Positions 14,131-23,015 of a stretch of DNA of 64,000 nucleotides are shown one piece after another. The stretch's first letter is position 1; each line of letters starts with the position of its first letter. Source of the DNA: Synechococcus sp. ROS8604 (GTDB lineage: Bacteria; Cyanobacteriota; Cyanobacteriia; PCC-6307; Cyanobiaceae); the NCBI RefSeq assembly GCF_014279655.1, contig NZ_CP047946.1:1922001-1986000 (forward strand). Reading direction: 5' to 3'. The position numbers were made by a program, and so were the translations under genes. The notes beneath the pieces are model-generated. The model made no database searches and had not been told where the DNA came from. It saw nothing but the letters and a program-made list of their open reading frames with translations.

Positions 14131-15807
14131 CTAGGAAGGAAGCTCCTGAAGCTGAGGCAATTGATTGACGGCACGCAACAACACCTCATAACGACTGGCG
14201 CTGACGTGATCTTCGGGGAGAAGGTCAAGAAGCTTGAGTTTCTCCAAGCGCTTGCGTGTCGCCCCAGGGTGGACAACGACATATACCAAACGGCCTACTT
14301 CAATGGCTTCTTTGATCGCATTTTCAAGGGCCAGGGAGGCCGTTACACCGAGGTGAGACACTTCACTGAGATCAAACAACACAGCCTCACAAGCCTCAAT
14401 CGCGTTGTGCTCACGATTGATGGTTTTAGCGACACCAAAAATCATCGGCCCGGTTAGCTGAAAGAGCAAAAGTCGTCCAGATGCACGATCGAGCAGCGCT
14501 TGTTCATCAAGCGGAAGCGTCACATCATCATCGGTGGTACTAATGGTTTTCACTCCCTTGGACTGAAGGGCCGTCATCCGTTCAATCGTTAGGACATTGG
14601 CAACAAAAACTCCAATGAACACGGCCCAAATCAAATCGACGAGAACGGTGAGACCAATCACTCCATAGGTAATGCATGCTGCTTTCATCGAAAGATGATG
14701 AGCGCGCATCAAAAAACTCCAATCGATAATGTCAAAACCAACCTTCAGGGCAATCCCGGCCAGCACAGCCAAGGGAATCAGCGAAGCCCAAGGTGCTGCC
14801 ACCAAAATGACGAGCATCAAAATGATCGCTCTCACAATTCCCGACAGGGCAGAACGTCCGCCAGCCTGAATGTTGACAACCGTTCCCATTGTGGCGCCAG
14901 CGCCAGGGAGGCCACCAAATAAACCAGACGCTAAATTACCCAGACCCTGGCCGATGAGTTCCTTATTGGAGTCGTGTTCTGTGCGAGTAAGGCTGTCTGC
15001 CACAACAGAAGTGAGGAGGGCATCAATACAACCAAGCATTCCCAACACGGCCCCATTCACCACCATCAGCCGCAGCAAATCTGGAGTAATTCCAGAGAAT
15101 GTAGGTGGCTGAAAACGAGGAAACTCAGCGGAAAACTCAGGAATTCGGCTTAAACCAGCATCCGAAAAGATGCTGAGAGATAACGCTGTTCCAACAACGA
15201 GGGCGAGAAGCTGGGGAGGACAAAAACGCTTCCAACTTTCAGGGGTAAACCAAAGAATCAGCAGCGTGAAGAGCGCAAGTAAAAACTCCAGCGGTTGTGC
15301 ACCGGAAATCAACTGAGGCAGACTGGATAAAGTGCCAATCACACCGCCCGTTGGACTGGTCTGACCCAAAAATGGGGCCAACTGAAGGATGACAAGGATC
15401 ACCCCAATTCCAGACATAAAGCCTGAAATCACGGTGTAAGGCATCATCGTGATGTATCGGCCTAATCGACAAAGTCCGAACAGGATCTGGAAGAGGCCTG
15501 CGAGCATCACCACCATGAAAGCCAGCGCCAGCGCTGTCGATCGGTCGGGGATTTGGCTGGTGAAATTGAGGATCACCGCTGTGAACACCACCGTCATCGG
15601 ACCAGTGGGCTCAGAGATCAGCGTGGATGTCCCACCAAACAGGGCCGCCACTAGGCCAATAATCACTGCACCCCAAAGACCTGCAGCCGCACCAGCTCCA
15701 GAAGCCACGCCGAAAGCCAGCGCCATTGGAAGTGCCACCACAGCAGCCGTCAGCCCACCAAAGGCATCGCCACGGATGTTGCGAGTGCTGATGTAATTAA
15801 GGAGCAC
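14131..15807 (-). CDS. bicA: SulP family transporter, BicA-type bicarbonate transporter
   Basis: The 558-residue SulP protein has about 12-14 membrane segments followed by a cytoplasmic STAS domain (about residues 435-545). The N-terminal 'RGDAFGGLTAAVVALPMALAFGVASG' block and 'EPTGPMTVVFTAVI' motif match BicA, the Na+-dependent, high-flux, low-affinity bicarbonate importer of marine cyanobacteria. Other SulP members carry sulfate, so the substrate is a family-level inference. It is strengthened by the carbon-concentrating genes elsewhere in the window. It directly precedes pyrC and is divergent from the antiporter gene. Confidence 0.85.
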   Translation of the reverse strand: MLLNYISTRNIRGDAFGGLTAAVVALPMALAFGVASGAGAAAGLWGAVIIGLVAALFGGTSTLISEPTGPMTVVFTAVILNFTSQIPDRSTALALAFMVVMLAGLFQILFGLCRLGRYITMMPYTVISGFMSGIGVILVILQLAPFLGQTSPTGGVIGTLSSLPQLISGAQPLEFLLALFTLLILWFTPESWKRFCPPQLLALVVGTALSLSIFSDAGLSRIPEFSAEFPRFQPPTFSGITPDLLRLMVVNGAVLGMLGCIDALLTSVVADSLTRTEHDSNKELIGQGLGNLASGLFGGLPGAGATMGTVVNIQAGGRSALSGIVRAIILMLVILVAAPWASLIPLAVLAGIALKVGFDIIDWSFLMRAHHLSMKAACITYGVIGLTVLVDLIWAVFIGVFVANVLTIERMTALQSKGVKTISTTDDDVTLPLDEQALLDRASGRLLLFQLTGPMIFGVAKTINREHNAIEACEAVLFDLSEVSHLGVTASLALENAIKEAIEVGRLVYVVVHPGATRKRLEKLKLLDLLPEDHVSASRYEVLLRAVNQLPQLQELPS

Positions 15808-15910
15808 CAGAGTCCCGTCTTTGAAGTTGAATAATACTAAACCTCTTCCCCTTTGCAGCCGTCAAGGCGAACAAGGAAGATAGTTCTGAATCTGAAGAAG
15901 CACGGAGTCG

Positions 15911-17014
15911 ATGCCTGACTTTCTGATCTCTACCCTCGAGCTCTTGGTGGGAATCGGACTTCTGTTCGGCGGGGGCGAGTTATTCGTCCAAGGTGCGGTC
16001 ATTCTTGCCGTCATCCTCGGCGTCCCTCAGCTGGTCATTGGCCTGACGGTGGTTTCGCTTGGGACGAGCGCACCAGAATTTTTTGTCAGCATCAGTTCCG
16101 TGGTGCAAGGAGCTGATGCGCTGGCCGTCAGCAACGTGGTGGGGAGCAACATTTTCAATGTGTTGGTCGTGCTCGGCTGCAGCGCCCTCGTTCTGCCGCT
16201 GAAAGTGGAAAGCCGCTTGGTGAGAAGGGATGTCCCTCTCCTCCTTGCCGTTTCGGCGGCGGCTTGGGGGATGGCATCGGCTGGACGTGTGACCTGGCAA
16301 TCAGGCGTTGCACTCTTGCTGGGTCTGGTAATTAACACCGTCTGGGAAATCCGCACAGCACGGGAGGAACCAGAGGAAATGGAGCCTGCCGAACCAGAGG
16401 TTGACTTGGAAACCGCCCAACAGGGTTTGATCAAAGCCATGGTTCGCCTGTTGGTCGGCATTGTTGTTCTTGGCTTCGGCGCCCATCTGCTGGTGAAAGG
16501 AGCCAGCGCCGTTGCCTTAAGCCTCGGTGTGAGTGAGGCCGTGATCGGACTCACCATTGTTTCGGCTGGCACCTCGATGCCTGAATTAATTACCTCTTTG
16601 GTCGCTGCATTGCGCGGGAGAACCGATCTCGCCATTGGCAATGTGGTTGGCAGCTGTCTGCTGAATCTTCTTCTGGTGCTGGCTGGAGGTGCCTTGGCCG
16701 CAGGAGCAAAGGGTCTCAATGTCTCTCCGGATTTAATCCATGACGACATGCCTGTGATGATTCTGACCAGCCTGGCGTGCCTGCCAATCTTCTGGACAAA
16801 AGGGAGAATTTCCAGGGTTGAAGGTGGAATACTCGTTGCCTTATACGTTCTTTACATCACCGATAACGTTCTCCCTCGCACAGGGCTTTCGTCTTGGTCG
16901 GACGAATTTCGGCTGATCATGCTTTGTGTTGTGCTACCAGCCGTTGTGATTCTGATTGTGGTGCAGGCCGCTCGTTACTGGAGGCAGCTCAAACACAAAG
17001 GTGTTTCAAGCTGA
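15911..17014 (+). CDS. Calcium/sodium antiporter (CaCA family, YrbG-like)
   Basis: The 367-residue membrane protein has two homologous halves of about five helices each. The alpha-repeat signatures are 'SLGTSAPEFFVSI...SNVVGSNIFN' in the first half and 'SAGTSMPELITSL...GNVVGSCLLN' in the second. These line the ion path of K+-dependent or independent Na+/Ca2+ exchangers. A hydrophilic acidic loop (about residues 155-175) separates the halves. It would exchange cations across the plasma membrane. ATG at 15911 begins 'MPDFLISTLELLVGIGLLFGGG', giving the expected first helix. Confidence 0.9.
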   Translation: MPDFLISTLELLVGIGLLFGGGELFVQGAVILAVILGVPQLVIGLTVVSLGTSAPEFFVSISSVVQGADALAVSNVVGSNIFNVLVVLGCSALVLPLKVESRLVRRDVPLLLAVSAAAWGMASAGRVTWQSGVALLLGLVINTVWEIRTAREEPEEMEPAEPEVDLETAQQGLIKAMVRLLVGIVVLGFGAHLLVKGASAVALSLGVSEAVIGLTIVSAGTSMPELITSLVAALRGRTDLAIGNVVGSCLLNLLLVLAGGALAAGAKGLNVSPDLIHDDMPVMILTSLACLPIFWTKGRISRVEGGILVALYVLYITDNVLPRTGLSSWSDEFRLIMLCVVLPAVVILIVVQAARYWRQLKHKGVSS

Positions 17015-17101: not shown

Positions 17102-17602
17102 ATGATTGGGCTGCTCCCCACGCTTAACGACAAGAATCTCCCCTGGCTGGATGTCATTCATCCAATCGTGGTGCACTTCGTGATTGCGATGGCGCTGATC
17201 ACGGTGGTCTTCGACCTGCTTGGAGTGTTCACAGGGCGTCGCAACCTGTTTGAGGTGAGCTTCTGGAACTTGCTGGTAGCGACCGTGGCCATCTTCGTCG
17301 CCATCATCTTTGGACAGATCGAAGCCGGCCTAGCCACTCCTTATGGAGCTTCAAGAGACATTTTGAATTACCACAGCACCCTTGGCTGGTCGCTTGCTGC
17401 GATTCTCAGCCTCCTGACGGGGTGGCGATATGTCGCAAGACAAAAAGACCCCACAGTGCTGCCACGAGGATTTCTGATCATTGATTCAGTCTTAGCAGTC
17501 CTGGTGTTTTGCCAGGTTTACCTAGGCGACAAACTCGTTTGGATTTATGGCCTCCATACGGTCCCGGTGGTCGAAGCCGTCCGTAGTGGAGCTCTGTCAT
17601 GA
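17102..17602 (+). CDS. DUF2231 membrane protein, first of a pair upstream of ARTO
   Basis: The 166-residue protein has four predicted helices. Conserved His residues lie at helix ends: H20 and H25 in 'HPIVVHF', H91 in 'NYHSTLG' and H152 in 'IYGLHTV'. This is the DUF2231 layout and would suit bis-His heme b ligation. It overlaps the next DUF2231 gene by 4 bp, which overlaps ctaC by 4 bp, so the proteins are very likely made together with the oxidase. A role as electron donor or assembly subunit is inference; no biochemical function is established to my knowledge. Confidence 0.88.
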   Translation: MIGLLPTLNDKNLPWLDVIHPIVVHFVIAMALITVVFDLLGVFTGRRNLFEVSFWNLLVATVAIFVAIIFGQIEAGLATPYGASRDILNYHSTLGWSLAAILSLLTGWRYVARQKDPTVLPRGFLIIDSVLAVLVFCQVYLGDKLVWIYGLHTVPVVEAVRSGALS

Positions 17603-18219
17603 CGGTCATCAGCACCATTCTCTCGCCGGTGAATGAAATCGCCGAAAAACTTGGGGCGAATGATCTCCCCTACGCGATCCCGATTCATCCCAATTTGGTG
17701 CACTTCACCATTGGCTTGTTTGCTATCGGAATCGCCTTTGATTTTGCCGGAGCCTTTTACCCACTTGAGAAACGAGTTTTTCGTTTCTTAGCACTACCAG
17801 CAACACGAAGTGGGTTTCACGATGTTGGCTGGTACAACCTTCTCGCTTGCAGCGTGATCACCTTTTTCACCGTTGCGGCTGGCTTTTACGAAATGCTGCT
17901 TGCCGTTCCACTGCAAGGAGTTCGCAGCATCATTGGCCAAAACGCGATCGACACCATGCTGTGGCATGCGATCGGAGGGGTCGCCCTGCTTCTGATCATT
18001 GTGGTGATGACCATCTGGCGAGGGTTTCAACGATTTTTGTGGCGAAAAGACTTTGGTCGTCAGGTGAGCTGGCTCTATCTGGGATGCGGTGCTGTCGTGC
18101 TCCTCGTCATGGGCGTCCATGGAAGCCTTGGAGCCTGGCTTGCCAGTGAATTTGGTGTTCACATCACGGCCGATCAGCTCCTTGCTGCCGGGGCCGATCT
18201 CAATGAGGTCTTGCCATGA
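17599..18219 (+). CDS. DUF2231-like membrane protein, second of the pair
   Basis: The 206-residue protein repeats the pattern of its upstream neighbour with longer loops. H30 and H35 lie in 'HPNLVHF', H123 in 'MLWHAIGG' and H174 in 'MGVHGSLG', spread over four helices. It therefore looks like a diverged paralogue. The gene overlaps both neighbours by 4 bp (ATGA), the tightest spacing in the operon. The four His positions suit one or two b-type hemes facing each other within the bundle, which would fit electron delivery to the quinol-type oxidase encoded next. That function is a hypothesis. Confidence 0.85.
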   Translation: MTVISTILSPVNEIAEKLGANDLPYAIPIHPNLVHFTIGLFAIGIAFDFAGAFYPLEKRVFRFLALPATRSGFHDVGWYNLLACSVITFFTVAAGFYEMLLAVPLQGVRSIIGQNAIDTMLWHAIGGVALLLIIVVMTIWRGFQRFLWRKDFGRQVSWLYLGCGAVVLLVMGVHGSLGAWLASEFGVHITADQLLAAGADLNEVLP

Positions 18220-19151
18220 CGAGCGCAACTCCCAAGAAGGGACCAAATATTGGCGCCATTGTGATCATCACTGTCGCCGTCGCTATCAATCTGGTTATCT
18301 CGAAATTGATGGCGACCTGGTCTCTGAGTTGGTTCCCACCCCAAGCATCCAGTGCCGCACCTTACGTCGACAATCTGTTCGCACTGGAGACGGGGATCGG
18401 CTCATTCATCTTTTTTGGATGCACCGGCTTTATGGGCTGGGTGTTGTTATTCAACCGGGCTGGAAAGTACGACGAAAGTGATGGGGCACCGATCGAAGGC
18501 AACACCAAATTAGAAATCACCTGGACGATCATTCCCCTGGTGACGGTCTTCCTGATCGCCACTTATTCGATGAACGTCAATATGAAGCTTCAAACCCTCG
18601 GGCCGAAGCACAAATACGCCATCGGAACCGATCCAACCCTGCTGATGGAGGCAGATCCGATTGCTGAGGTGGGACCGATCGATGTCATTGCCCGTCAGTG
18701 GAGTTGGGAATTCGTTTACCCCGACGGAGTTCGCAGCTCTGAGCTGCATCTCCCGATTGATCAGCGTGTGAATTTCCGAATGATTTCGGAAGACGTGCTC
18801 CACAGTTTCTTCGTCCCGGCCTTCCGGCTCAAACAAGACATCATTCCTGGAAGCATTATTTCTTACAGCCTTACTCCAACAAAAGAAGGGCGATTCCGAC
18901 TCCGAGACGCCATGTTCAGCGGTGCCTATTTCTCCCAGAACCAAACGGACGTGATTGTTGAAACCCAACAGGATTTTGCCGAATGGTTAAAGACAACGGC
19001 ACAACAACCGCTCCAACAGGGTCTTGATCCAAGTCGCGCCCTCTATGACCGCCGCATCGCCCGTGGTGACAAGGGCTGGGCCACGGTGCCGCCCGCTCCA
19101 GCACCGATGGTGAACGACCCCGGTGATCCCTCCATTCCACACGACGCCTGA
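18216..19151 (+). CDS. ctaC: Terminal oxidase subunit II of ARTO type, no CuA site
   Basis: Subunit II of a heme-copper oxidase: two N-terminal membrane helices (about 15-38 and 60-82) and a cupredoxin-like periplasmic domain with 'DVIARQWSWEF' and 'VLHSFFVPAFRLKQDIIPG'. The region that normally carries the CuA ligands (CxxxCGxxH) reads RDAMFSGAYFSQNQ around residue 231, with no Cys and no His. This is the mark of the cyanobacterial alternative respiratory terminal oxidase (CtaCII), thought to accept electrons from quinol or an unidentified donor. It overlaps the DUF2231 gene upstream and lies 8 bp before ctaD. Confidence 0.93.
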   Translation: MTSATPKKGPNIGAIVIITVAVAINLVISKLMATWSLSWFPPQASSAAPYVDNLFALETGIGSFIFFGCTGFMGWVLLFNRAGKYDESDGAPIEGNTKLEITWTIIPLVTVFLIATYSMNVNMKLQTLGPKHKYAIGTDPTLLMEADPIAEVGPIDVIARQWSWEFVYPDGVRSSELHLPIDQRVNFRMISEDVLHSFFVPAFRLKQDIIPGSIISYSLTPTKEGRFRLRDAMFSGAYFSQNQTDVIVETQQDFAEWLKTTAQQPLQQGLDPSRALYDRRIARGDKGWATVPPAPAPMVNDPGDPSIPHDA

Positions 19152-19159
19152 GACATGCC

Positions 19160-20848
19160 ATGACGACGAACACCTACGACCTCCGCATTCTCAAGGCACC
19201 GCATCCAGTTCCTGGAGCCCCGGACAACTGGAAGCGCTTCTTCAGTTTCAACACCGACGCAAAGGTGATTGGAATTCAATACATCGCCACGGCCCTTTTC
19301 TTCCTTTTAGTGGGTGGCCTATTGGCCATGATCGTGCGAGGCGAACTAATCACTCCTCCAGCAGATCTTGTTGACCCAACCGTCTACAACGGCCTCTACA
19401 CCATGCACGGAACAGTGATGTTGTTCCTGTTTCTGTTTCCCATTCTCAACGGTTTCAACAATCTGTTGATCCCCACGATGATCGGGGCACCAGACATGGC
19501 ATTTCCGAAGCTGAATGCCGCTGCTTTCTGGCTGGTGCCAGTGTTCTCCATCGTCTTGATGGGAAGCTTTTTCGCCCCAGGCGGACCCGCTTCATCGGGA
19601 TGGTGGTCGTACCCACCGATGAGTTTGCAAAATCCACTCGGCCATTTCATCAATGGAGAGTTTCTCTGGATTCTTGCGGTGGCCCTGTCCGGCATCTCCT
19701 CGATCATGGGCGCCATCAATTTCGTGACAACCATCATCCGGATGAGAGCCCCAGGGATGGGCTTCTTCCGAATGCCGATTTTTGTTTGGACGGCATGGGC
19801 CGCCCAGACCATCCAGTTGATAGGACTGCCGGCTCTCACAGGCGGTGCCGTGATGCTGCTGTTTGACCTCAGCTTCGGTACAAGCTTTTTCAGGCCAGAA
19901 GGTGGCGGTGATCCAGTGTTGTTTCAGCACTTTTTCTGGTTCTATTCCCACCCCGCCGTTTACGTGCTGGTGTTGCCAGTGTTTGGAATTTTCTCTGAGC
20001 TCTTTCCGGTTTATGCACGCAAACCTTTATTTGGCTATCGCTTTGTAGCAATTGCCTCTTTCGGAATCACCTTTCTCAGCCTGATTGTGTGGGCTCACCA
20101 CATGTTTTACACAGGCACACCGAACTGGATGCGTCACATCTTCATGTTCACCACGATGCTTATTGCCATCCCAACTGGAGTGAAAGTATTTGCCTGGCTG
20201 GGAACACTCTGGGCAGGAAATTTACGCTTGAGCACACCAATGCTGTTCTGCATCGGCGGTCTCATTAATTTCATTTTCGCGGGAATTACTGGGGTGATGC
20301 TAGCCACCGTGCCCATTGATATTCATGTAGGCAACACATACTTCGTTGTTGCCCACTTCCACTATGTCATCTTCAACACCATTGTTTTTGGTGTTTTCGC
20401 CGGTATTTACCACTGGTTCCCAAAATTCACAGGAAAGATGTATTACGAAGGCCTTGGGAAAGTCCATTTCGTTCTCACCTTCATCGGAGCCACGCTCAAC
20501 TGGCTTCCACTTCACTGGGCCGGCTTGCTAGGCATGCCCCGTCGTGTGGCCTCCTACGACCCCGAATTCGCCATCTGGAACGTGATTGCAAGCATCGGCG
20601 CCTTCATGCTTGGCGTCGCCTCAATCCCCTTCATCCTGAACATGGTGAGTTCCTGGGCTCGCGGACCCAAGGCTCCTCCCAACCCCTGGCGAGCGATTGG
20701 TCTGGAATGGCTGCTGCCATCCCCGCCTCCGGCCGAAAACTTCGAAGACGACATTCCGACTGTGATTAGTGAGCCCTACGGCTATGGCTTAGGCAAACCC
20801 TTAGTCGAAGACCAAGACTTCTATATCCGTCGCTCCATGGAGGCCTAA
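19160..20848 (+). CDS. ctaD: Heme-copper oxidase subunit I of ARTO, A2-type
   Basis: The catalytic subunit, 562 residues and about 12 helices, reduces O2 to water. Metal ligands are present: the heme His in 'MHGTVMLFL', CuB His in 'YSHPAVY' (about 262-268) and in 'WAHHMFYTG', and heme a3/a His in 'VAHFHYV'. The K-path Lys is in 'GVKVFAW'. Helix VI reads YSHPAV rather than HPEV, so the D-path glutamate is replaced, as in type A2 oxidases. Together with the CuA-less subunit II this identifies ARTO (CtaDII). Confidence 0.96.
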   Translation: MTTNTYDLRILKAPHPVPGAPDNWKRFFSFNTDAKVIGIQYIATALFFLLVGGLLAMIVRGELITPPADLVDPTVYNGLYTMHGTVMLFLFLFPILNGFNNLLIPTMIGAPDMAFPKLNAAAFWLVPVFSIVLMGSFFAPGGPASSGWWSYPPMSLQNPLGHFINGEFLWILAVALSGISSIMGAINFVTTIIRMRAPGMGFFRMPIFVWTAWAAQTIQLIGLPALTGGAVMLLFDLSFGTSFFRPEGGGDPVLFQHFFWFYSHPAVYVLVLPVFGIFSELFPVYARKPLFGYRFVAIASFGITFLSLIVWAHHMFYTGTPNWMRHIFMFTTMLIAIPTGVKVFAWLGTLWAGNLRLSTPMLFCIGGLINFIFAGITGVMLATVPIDIHVGNTYFVVAHFHYVIFNTIVFGVFAGIYHWFPKFTGKMYYEGLGKVHFVLTFIGATLNWLPLHWAGLLGMPRRVASYDPEFAIWNVIASIGAFMLGVASIPFILNMVSSWARGPKAPPNPWRAIGLEWLLPSPPPAENFEDDIPTVISEPYGYGLGKPLVEDQDFYIRRSMEA

Positions 20849-20852
20849 AGCC

Positions 20853-21458
20853 ATGACCACAACCAATCCCGAATTACCCCTTAATCATCAACCCGGCCAC
20901 ATCAAACATGATGGGCACAACCTCACAGGTTTTATCATTTTCCTGTGTTCAGAAAGCATTATTTTCCTAGCCTTTTTCACTGGGTTTGCACTGCTCAAAA
21001 TCACCGCACCAGAGTGGCTTCCCGAAGGCGTTGAAGGGCTGGAAACACGCATGCCTTTGATCAACACAATTGTGCTGGTTAGCTCAAGCTTTGTAGCCTA
21101 TTTTGCCGAACGATATTTACACCAGAAAAACCTTTGGGGCTTTCGAGCTCTATGGCTTCTCACGATGGCGATGGGAACCTACTTCGTTTATGGTCAATAT
21201 GTGGAATGGTCCGAACTTCAGTTCGGACTTAGCAGTGGTGTTTTTGGTGGTACATTTTTTCTACTAACGGGATTCCATGGCCTGCATGTGATTACAGGCA
21301 TTCTATTAATGGGAATCATGCTGCTTCGGTCCTTTAGGCCAAACAATTACGAGAAAGGCGATATGGGTGTCACGTCAGTGAGCTTGTTTTGGCATTTTGT
21401 GGATGTTATTTGGATCATTCTTTTCCTCCTAATTTACGTCTGGCAACGCACCACCTAA
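20853..21458 (+). CDS. ctaE: Heme-copper oxidase subunit III
   Basis: The 201-residue membrane protein has five predicted helices. It carries the subunit III signatures 'FLCSESIIFLAFFTGFALL' (with the conserved Glu in the first helix), 'FLLTGFHGLHVITGILLMGIM' and 'LFWHFVDVIWIILFLLIYVW'. Subunit III stabilises subunit I and its proton uptake. It starts 4 bp after ctaD and completes the ctaC-D-E set. The GMC oxidoreductase gene follows 39 bp later on the same strand. Confidence 0.95.
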   Translation: MTTTNPELPLNHQPGHIKHDGHNLTGFIIFLCSESIIFLAFFTGFALLKITAPEWLPEGVEGLETRMPLINTIVLVSSSFVAYFAERYLHQKNLWGFRALWLLTMAMGTYFVYGQYVEWSELQFGLSSGVFGGTFFLLTGFHGLHVITGILLMGIMLLRSFRPNNYEKGDMGVTSVSLFWHFVDVIWIILFLLIYVWQRTT

Positions 21459-21497: not shown

Positions 21498-23015
21498 ATG
21501 ATCATCGACGACCGCCATTACGACGTCATCATTATCGGCAGTGGTGCCGGTGGTGGAACGCTTGCCGGCACCCTAAGCAGGCAGGGGCATTCCGTGCTCA
21601 TGCTCGAGCGGGGCGAGGCCATGGCACTCGAAGATCAAAACGTGGCCGATGTGGATCTGTTCCGGAAAGATCGTTACCACCCCAAGAGTGAACGCTGGTT
21701 TGGCCCCGACGGTGATCCATTCGCACCACAAACCACCTATTCCCTCGGCGGCAACACCAAAATCTGGGGCGCCGTGCTGGAACGCATGCGCGAACAGGAT
21801 TTTGGGGAAGTCCCGTTGCAAGAGGGGATTTCACCGTCCTGGCCAATCGATTACGACCGGCTCTCCCCTTATTACTCAGCCGCTGAAAAGCTGTACCGGG
21901 TCCACGGTCGCTCTGGCGTTGACCCAACCGAACCAAGCCGCTCTTCCCCTTTTGACCATGAGCCAAAACCCCTGGTTCCCTTTCTTGAGCCCATGCGAGA
22001 AGCGCTCAAACGCCAGGGATGTCAGCCCTATGACCTACCGCTGAGCTGGTCCAAGAGCCAGGAAGATCCGAGTGGAGATTCCCAGCTTTATGGCCTCGAC
22101 AATGCCGATCCTTCTCACCTAGAGATCCGAACGCAAGCCAGGGTCAAGCGTTTGCACGTGAATCCGAGCGGCAGCTCGGTCAAGGGAGTGGAAGCGGATG
22201 TAGCTGGAGAAACATGGCTGTTCAAAGCGGATCTCATCGTGCTTGCCGCAGGTGCCATTAACACTCCGGCCATCCTGCTGCGATCGCAGTCCAGCCATCA
22301 TCCCCGCGGCCTCAGCAACGGGTCCGATCAAGTTGGTCGCAACTTGATGAATCTGCAACTCACCTCCATCCTGCAGCTCGCGACCGAACGCAACGACGGA
22401 CGCTATGCGCGGTCGCTCGGAATCAATGACTACTACTGGGGTGACAAAAACGTCTCCTTCCCCCTCGGCCATATTCAAGCCGCGGGAGGCGTCCTGCAAG
22501 ACGCCCTGTTTGCAGAGTCACCACCGGTGTTGTCCCTTGTCACCAAGATGATTCCCGACTTTGGACTGGAGCGACTGGCGTCCCGCTCGGTGGCTTGGTG
22601 GGCCATGTCAGAGGTCTTGCCCGACACCCACAACAAGGTATGGCTCAATAACGATCAGATCCGCATCAACTACATCCACAACAACCGCGAAGCGCATGAC
22701 CGACTGGTCTATCGCTGGATTGACACTCTCAAAGCCATCGAAGCCGACCCACTCACGCGCGTCGTCAATCCAGCCCCAACCCACCCCCGGGGCGAAGCAC
22801 CCTTAAGCGTGGTGGGCTACGCATGCGGCACCTGTTGCATGGGCAGCGATCCAGCGGCCTCTGTGGTCGATGCCACAGGGAAATGCCATGAACTCGACAA
22901 TCTCTACATCGCCGACACGAGCGTGTTCCCAAGCTGTCCAAGTGTTGGGCCGGGTCTGACGACCATCGCCTTAGCCCTGCGCTTAGCTGACACTCTCAGC
23001 GAGCGCATGAGCTGA
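21498..23015 (+). CDS. GMC family FAD-dependent oxidoreductase
   Basis: The 505-residue flavoprotein has the N-terminal dinucleotide fold 'YDVIIIGSGAGGGTLAGTLSRQGHSVLMLERG' pattern. The GMC block 'TTYSLGGNTKIWGAVLERM', the mid-region 'LIVLAAGAINTPAILLRS' and the C-terminal 'LYIADTSVFPSCPSVGPGLTTIALALRLAD' follow. GMC members oxidise alcohols, sugars or sterols; the substrate here is unknown. No signal peptide is seen. It follows ctaE by 39 bp, so it could be co-expressed with the alternative oxidase and pass electrons to the quinone pool, but this is only context. Confidence 0.88.
   Translation: MIIDDRHYDVIIIGSGAGGGTLAGTLSRQGHSVLMLERGEAMALEDQNVADVDLFRKDRYHPKSERWFGPDGDPFAPQTTYSLGGNTKIWGAVLERMREQDFGEVPLQEGISPSWPIDYDRLSPYYSAAEKLYRVHGRSGVDPTEPSRSSPFDHEPKPLVPFLEPMREALKRQGCQPYDLPLSWSKSQEDPSGDSQLYGLDNADPSHLEIRTQARVKRLHVNPSGSSVKGVEADVAGETWLFKADLIVLAAGAINTPAILLRSQSSHHPRGLSNGSDQVGRNLMNLQLTSILQLATERNDGRYARSLGINDYYWGDKNVSFPLGHIQAAGGVLQDALFAESPPVLSLVTKMIPDFGLERLASRSVAWWAMSEVLPDTHNKVWLNNDQIRINYIHNNREAHDRLVYRWIDTLKAIEADPLTRVVNPAPTHPRGEAPLSVVGYACGTCCMGSDPAASVVDATGKCHELDNLYIADTSVFPSCPSVGPGLTTIALALRLADTLSERMS

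Follow-up and report, generated by a model that had tools for sequence, protein, structure and literature searches.

Described relatives and the Synechococcus locus

The alternative respiratory terminal oxidase (ARTO) is widespread in cyanobacteria and has been linked to the iron-poor ocean, and in the accessible part of the paper that reports this, ctaC2-D2-E2 are treated as the ARTO unit (PMC10119275). In the available text of another paper ARTO is named a quinone-oxidising, bo3-type oxidase (PMC9313322). The available portion of a review takes plastoquinol as its electron donor and prints the Anabaena sp. PCC 7120 operon alr2729-alr2730-coxB3-coxA3-coxC3, leaving further subunits open (PMC6616624). 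We analysed a cluster of this kind in Synechococcus sp. ROS8604, within a 64,000-nucleotide stretch called the window below (contig NZ_CP047946.1, positions 1,922,001 to 1,986,000), where two membrane proteins of the DUF2231 family, here named A and B, are encoded directly before the ARTO genes ctaC, ctaD and ctaE. The A/B pair accompanies ARTO throughout the cyanobacteria that we surveyed, and we give about an even chance to the reading that A and B are extra ARTO subunits through which electrons enter by oxidation of plastoquinol. A preliminary description of this DNA had called the donor of ARTO unsettled and the DUF2231 partner undescribed; the first statement passes over the plastoquinol of the review, and the second is too strong, given that the operon with alr2729-alr2730 is in print there.

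The locus resembles the Anabaena Cox3 oxidase (ARTO; ctaCII-DII-EII, Qox) in its CuA-poor subunit II, its haem-copper subunit I and the two genes that precede coxB3, to which the available part of the review gives no stated function (PMC6616624); here, in contrast, the two leading genes are DUF2231 genes with invariant histidines and with linkage to cbb3 oxidases and dehydrogenases. From operon position, alr2729 and alr2730 are probably A and B. In the part seen of one study they are hypothetical genes among those lowered in sigma-factor mutant tables (PMC4390870). PCC 7002 A0728, whose number adjoins that of A0727 (ctaCII) and which the accessible material of another study pairs with sll1486 (PMC7880944), is probably B. 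Synechocystis sll0814/sll0815 were considered as candidates for A/B and dropped. NdbC and ARTO are reported, in the text available, to be lower under mixotrophy (PMC9175036). The open-licence PubMed Central literature (subscription papers lie outside this scope) holds no mention of DUF2231 in cyanobacteria, a single hit for DUF2231 in general (a cysteine database that is off-topic by its abstract), and nothing on a GMC oxidoreductase with a terminal oxidase in Synechococcus. The E. coli bo3 oxidase (CyoABCD) is, like ARTO, a haem-copper oxidase without CuA; it differs in its quinol-site residues (below), ARTO CtaC scores below the CyoA and QoxA cut-offs, and no DUF2231 gene was seen in the E. 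coli cyo stretch.

A (166 amino acids, 17102..17602, four predicted helices) and B (206 amino acids, 17599..18219) match PF09990 (DUF2231) with 129 and 135.9 bits, respectively, against a curated cut-off of 26.4 bits. They are followed by ctaC (subunit II, 18216..19151), ctaD (subunit I, 19160..20848) and ctaE (subunit III, 20853..21458), all five genes being on the plus strand. The 4-bp overlaps that the preliminary description saw between A and B and between B and ctaC are both present, each as ATGA, and its gene order is right as far as it goes; the row does not end at ctaE, since a GMC-family flavin dehydrogenase gene (505 amino acids, 21498..23015, plus strand), which it omitted, starts 39 bp past ctaE. 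A and B are the sole DUF2231 matches in this genome (2.88 Mb, one contig), and the closest named relatives by sequence are mostly marine Synechococcus.

Co-occurrence of A and B with ARTO

Scanning named genomes for the window ctaC yielded 39 loci, 38 cyanobacterial and one from a Myxococcales bacterium (L071). A and B lie upstream of ctaC in the same order in all 38 cyanobacterial loci (with a spacing of ~1.4 kb between A and B in L054, and with A split across two frames in L058), and neither was found at L071. Among 194 survey genomes drawn evenly from the phylum, an ARTO ctaC profile identified 59 genes in 49 genomes at 367.6-502.7 bits, cleanly separated from the next match at 258.6 bits, and all 49 genomes carry an A/B pair (Fisher p 5e-44, shared descent being ignored). 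The pair is present in 51 of the 194 genomes among the matches listed, a count that combines the best rows of two survey profile searches, and it is spread over 14 families. ctaC adjoins A/B in 55 of 59 cases (54 in fetched loci plus the window), and where a genome has two or three ARTO clusters (G068, G072, G095, G099, G119, G161, G168 and G183) each cluster has its own pair. It had been foreseen that DUF2231 pairs might prove to be scattered independently of ARTO; A/B pairs are not, and it is a third subfamily, C (below), that is independent. Adjacency by chance or within a single lineage was considered and rejected in view of the 14 families, the paralogous clusters within one genome and the two oxidase classes involved. 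We regard the linkage of A/B to ARTO as strong.

When the first start codon is used, 31 of 60 survey loci have a start-stop gap of -4 or -1 between A and B; the 4-bp B/ctaC overlap, unlike that of A and B, is uncommon (3 of 55 loci). Among the best 120 of 729 matches there is no natural A-B fusion. Over 91 loci, sequence distances for A and B track those of ctaC and ctaD (r 0.84-0.92, largely a matter of common descent), with means of 0.34 for A, 0.36 for B, 0.48 for ctaC and 0.27 for ctaD. That A and B diverge less than ctaC is subunit-like, and it counts against the main rival explanation, in which A and B are oxidase assembly factors that supply, for example, CuB with copper or subunit I with haem and whose P-side histidines hold metal in transit. 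The constant linkage to ARTO, with cbb3 oxidase in two genomes, would suit a factor for haem-copper oxidases, yet A/B are tied to particular oxidases: this genome and others have a CuA oxidase that comes with no further pair.

Some clusters have peculiarities of their own. ctaD is broken or split in L149 and L151. A nitroreductase-family gene lies 5' of A in eight loci (L072, L073, L074, L078, L079, L083, L149 and L152), preceded in several of them by a gene that is thioredoxin-like by eye. In genome G054 an additional A/B pair goes with a 105-amino-acid ctaC and a shortened ctaD (L168 to L161 region, L106), and a different contig bears an ARTO that is not linked to a pair.

Invariant histidines

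A and B have a common histidine set, H20, H25, H91 and H152 of A aligning with H30, H35, H123 and H188 of B. All four positions are histidine in 94 of 95 A sequences (the remaining row is gapped there) and in 97 of 97 B sequences, counts that keep near-identical sequences, and the four columns are invariant over the 55 rows of a joint A+B alignment. In this alignment (A4) the B rows fall on the A half, and it served solely for the joint comparison of A with B. The position of B H174 is histidine in 92 and glutamine in 5 of the 97 sequences; its counterpart is A Q138, and these two residues stand 14 residues before B H188 and A H152, respectively. A shared histidine pattern had been described earlier, together with the caution that it might not be conserved among homologues. 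The pattern is real and conserved, and one pairing in it was wrong: the counterpart of A H152 is B H188 rather than B H174.

A and B are predicted to be four-helix bundles, with the invariant histidines on the outer (P) face. Could residues so placed serve something other than electron entry? They could bind copper, as assembly factors would. A predicted P-side location is also what one would expect if A/B were a transmembrane redox protein that passes electrons to Fe(III) outside, and this would explain reports, in the accessible part of one paper, that a Synechocystis ctaD2/ctaE2 mutant is impaired in iron reduction and that ARTO is a mark of Prochlorococcus from iron-poor waters (PMC10119275). 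Such a role leaves the cbb3 and NDH-2 linkages (below) unaccounted for, no recurrent iron-transport gene was seen among the neighbours (which were clustered and not all named), and we consider it very improbable. A further alternative is that A and B are structural or haem-free quinone-holding subunits of the NrfD/PsrC kind that shape a quinol site in CtaD and carry no electrons themselves. With four invariant histidines on one face, each subunit has more than such proteins need, and the CydA matches of the A-B model (below) rank higher; we judge this alternative improbable, though less so than the iron role.

Subunits II and I

Alignment of the window ctaC with the CuA-containing CtaC that this genome also encodes shows changes at five of the six CuA ligand positions (the usual list, as also in the available part of PMC6616624): the cysteines are D231 and S235, the glutamate is M233, one histidine is F239 and the methionine is N242. 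The first CuA histidine, H196, is retained and is invariant in 18 of 18 aligned ARTO CtaC proteins. Subunit II is thus of the ARTO type, without a CuA centre, and the earlier statement that it lacks all CuA ligands holds for all but H196. Subunit I is likewise that of an ARTO, the haem and CuB histidines being retained in 87 or 88 of 88 ARTO CtaD proteins. The motif YSHPAV, noted before as characteristic, is indeed present in 88 of 88; as a mark of ARTO it fails, because the CuA-linked CtaD proteins of the same genome (L200), another cyanobacterium (L204) and the Myxococcales bacterium (L071) share it.

None of R71, D75, H98 and Q101, which we take to be the quinol-site residues of CyoB, is found in the alignment of the 88 ARTO CtaD proteins. 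Quinol oxidases without these residues exist, and CtaD may oxidise quinol directly through another kind of site.

Dehydrogenase genes beside the cluster

The window-type GMC gene follows ctaE in most marine-type loci; of the 38 scan loci, 36 have it 3' of ctaE, and the stretches of the other two (L034 and L038) stop before that point. It is present in 17 of 60 survey A/B loci, and a window-type gene with 44 % identity follows ctaE on Trichormus plasmid A. Among the loci compared, L058, L115 and L128 are truncated at the end of the locus, and the stretch adjoining L128 is L160. GMC matches of at least 509 bits occur in 19 of the 194 genomes, every one of which has ARTO, and adjoin the ARTO cluster in 18; in the nineteenth, G187, the ARTO contig stops first. 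These counts leave out weaker GMC matches that lie elsewhere than at ARTO clusters. The best solved relatives of the GMC protein are FAD glucose dehydrogenase and the large subunit of fructose dehydrogenase, enzymes that feed respiratory chains.

A second type of dehydrogenase gene, NDH-2, lies in or by 13 of the 60 A/B loci (on the opposite strand in one); the closest solved structures are NADH dehydrogenase-like proteins and type II NADH dehydrogenases. The annotated order on a Fischerella plasmid is heme farnesyltransferase-ndbC-A-B-ctaC-ctaD-ctaE. GMC and NDH-2 genes occur together in none of the 60 loci (chance of no overlap 0.007, descent ignored). Away from ARTO clusters, NDH-2 and a GMC gene of more distant kinship are no more than ~3 kb apart in G183 (C1, 575-579 kb), G095 (C69, 80-84 kb) and G024 (C107, 76-80 kb). 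In the window itself, a SulP-type transporter gene (minus strand) and a sodium/calcium exchanger family gene (plus strand) lie just upstream of the cluster (14131-17014).

A and B with cbb3 oxidase, and subfamily C

Two genomes, G036 and G105, have an A/B pair without ARTO, in the gene order ccoN-ccoO-A-B-NDH-2. No CcoP (FixP_N) was found in either genome, and each has one further haem-copper oxidase. FixO matches occur in three genomes of the window's class, these two and G038, the last without an A match. Synechococcus elongatus, a control in these searches, matches the FixO model as well as that of DUF2231. The cbb3-linked B proteins (L131, 5009-5923; L153, 3748-4671) have a C-terminal extension of ~100 residues, with no Pfam match in L131.

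Subfamily C is a third DUF2231 subfamily of single genes, unpaired save for one tandem (L127). It belongs to the same Pfam family as A and B and retains the equivalents of H20 and H91; the A/B profile detects it barely or not at all, and C genes were therefore taken by coordinates (L154 being without a frame). No ctaC, ctaD or ctaE gene lies beside C in the stretches of 28 fetched loci, where LmeA-like and hemerythrin-like genes recur as neighbours. A linkage of DUF2231 as a whole to ARTO is ruled out by the independence of C. C-type DUF2231 genes occur in 121 plasmid records, of which three were examined: the Bradyrhizobium gene overlaps a sorbosone dehydrogenase gene, the Sinorhizobium gene has no redox neighbour, and the Paracoccus gene is considered below.

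How A and B might act

In the concatenated A-B model, the predicted arrangement of two bundles resembles the quinol subunits CydA and ActC, a resemblance that the sequences support weakly, similarity to CydA being seen for A and not for B or subfamily C. CydA (cytochrome bd) differs from A/B in being a single chain that itself reduces O2, and alternative complex III (ActC/ActF, NrfD family) in having iron-sulphur and multihaem c subunits. A search of the Protein Data Bank with the A profile gave no match, and Foldseek with A alone gave a best E of 0.54, the other structural matches being generic four-helix bundles and COX3.

We favour electron entry through A and B because the oxidases concerned are without their usual entry part, dehydrogenases are linked to them, the histidines are predicted to be on the P side and the model has two bundles. 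The electron-feeding idea of the preliminary description likewise gains from the CcoP-less cbb3 operons, the NDH-2 and GMC linkage, the missing bo3-type quinol site and the predicted CydA/NrfD-like arrangement. The chemistry that we infer is as follows: A and B would pair as a heterodimer in the membrane and belong constantly to the ARTO module; a linked flavin dehydrogenase (GMC or NDH-2), or else the general pool, would provide the reduced plastoquinol, to be oxidised at an outer (P)-face site of A/B; the invariant histidines would probably hold b-type haem; and electrons would go on to the low-spin haem of CtaD. A more far-reaching version, which we put forward tentatively and think rather doubtful, is that A/B is a minimal quinol dehydrogenase, a split double bundle of the CydA/NrfD type with P-side haem b, which plugs into both ARTO and CcoP-less cbb3 oxidase, replaces b6f and c-type entry, and with its own GMC or NDH-2 makes up a six-gene short respiratory chain.

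A number of observations weigh against electron entry through A and B. Four of the 59 ARTO ctaC genes (in G054 on C23, G070, G074 and G087) lie away from A/B, with the pair elsewhere in the same genome, and 30 of the 60 A/B loci have neither GMC nor NDH-2. The A-B model was made by joining the two chains artificially, has 73 residues at pLDDT <50 and stands without a control concatenation, and Foldseek gave no match at E <=0.001. The CydA match of A pairs A helices 3-4 with CydA helices 5-6, a register other than the one that the model would lead one to expect. Similarity to CydA is absent from B and from subfamily C (1.1 % each, and 2 of 30 shuffles reach the B score); with smaller CydA and A/B/C profiles the values were 4.1, 29 and 0.4 %. 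A cytochrome b561 profile against A/B gave 0.5 % in hhalign, and weak PF01292 matches in 48 of 106 members (best E 0.0012) are paralleled by the unrelated DUF5090 in 31 and TctB in 13 (best E 0.0003). Certain A/B pairs have no oxidase beside them: NDH-2-A-B stands without an oxidase gene in the stretches of L110 and L111 (the latter ending 0.6 kb past B), the order at L124 is MurC-MurB-A-B with oxidase absent from the locus, and a Gloeothece verrucosa plasmid (L207) has SDR-VOC-A-B and no oxidase genes. On the Paracoccus plasmid, the neighbours of the DUF2231 gene are a CuA oxidase, CtaG, CopD and a PQQ dehydrogenase, partly on the opposite strand, and its place among coxB and the genes for an oxidase subunit I, for CtaG-type assembly and for CopD speaks for an assembly factor. 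Assembly, on the other hand, does not account for the dehydrogenase linkage or for the NDH-2-A-B units without oxidase, and we think that it is unlikely, if less so than the haem-free alternative. Near A/B on the Gloeothece verrucosa plasmid there is also a gene for a four-helix copper-binding protein.

The route of electrons into ARTO has so far been assumed by analogy with the bo3 oxidase. If A and B are its entry subunits, ARTO would have at least five subunits, often with a dedicated dehydrogenase, and DUF2231, a family of unknown function, would gain a role, for which the cbb3 operons that carry A and B would be a second, independent test system.
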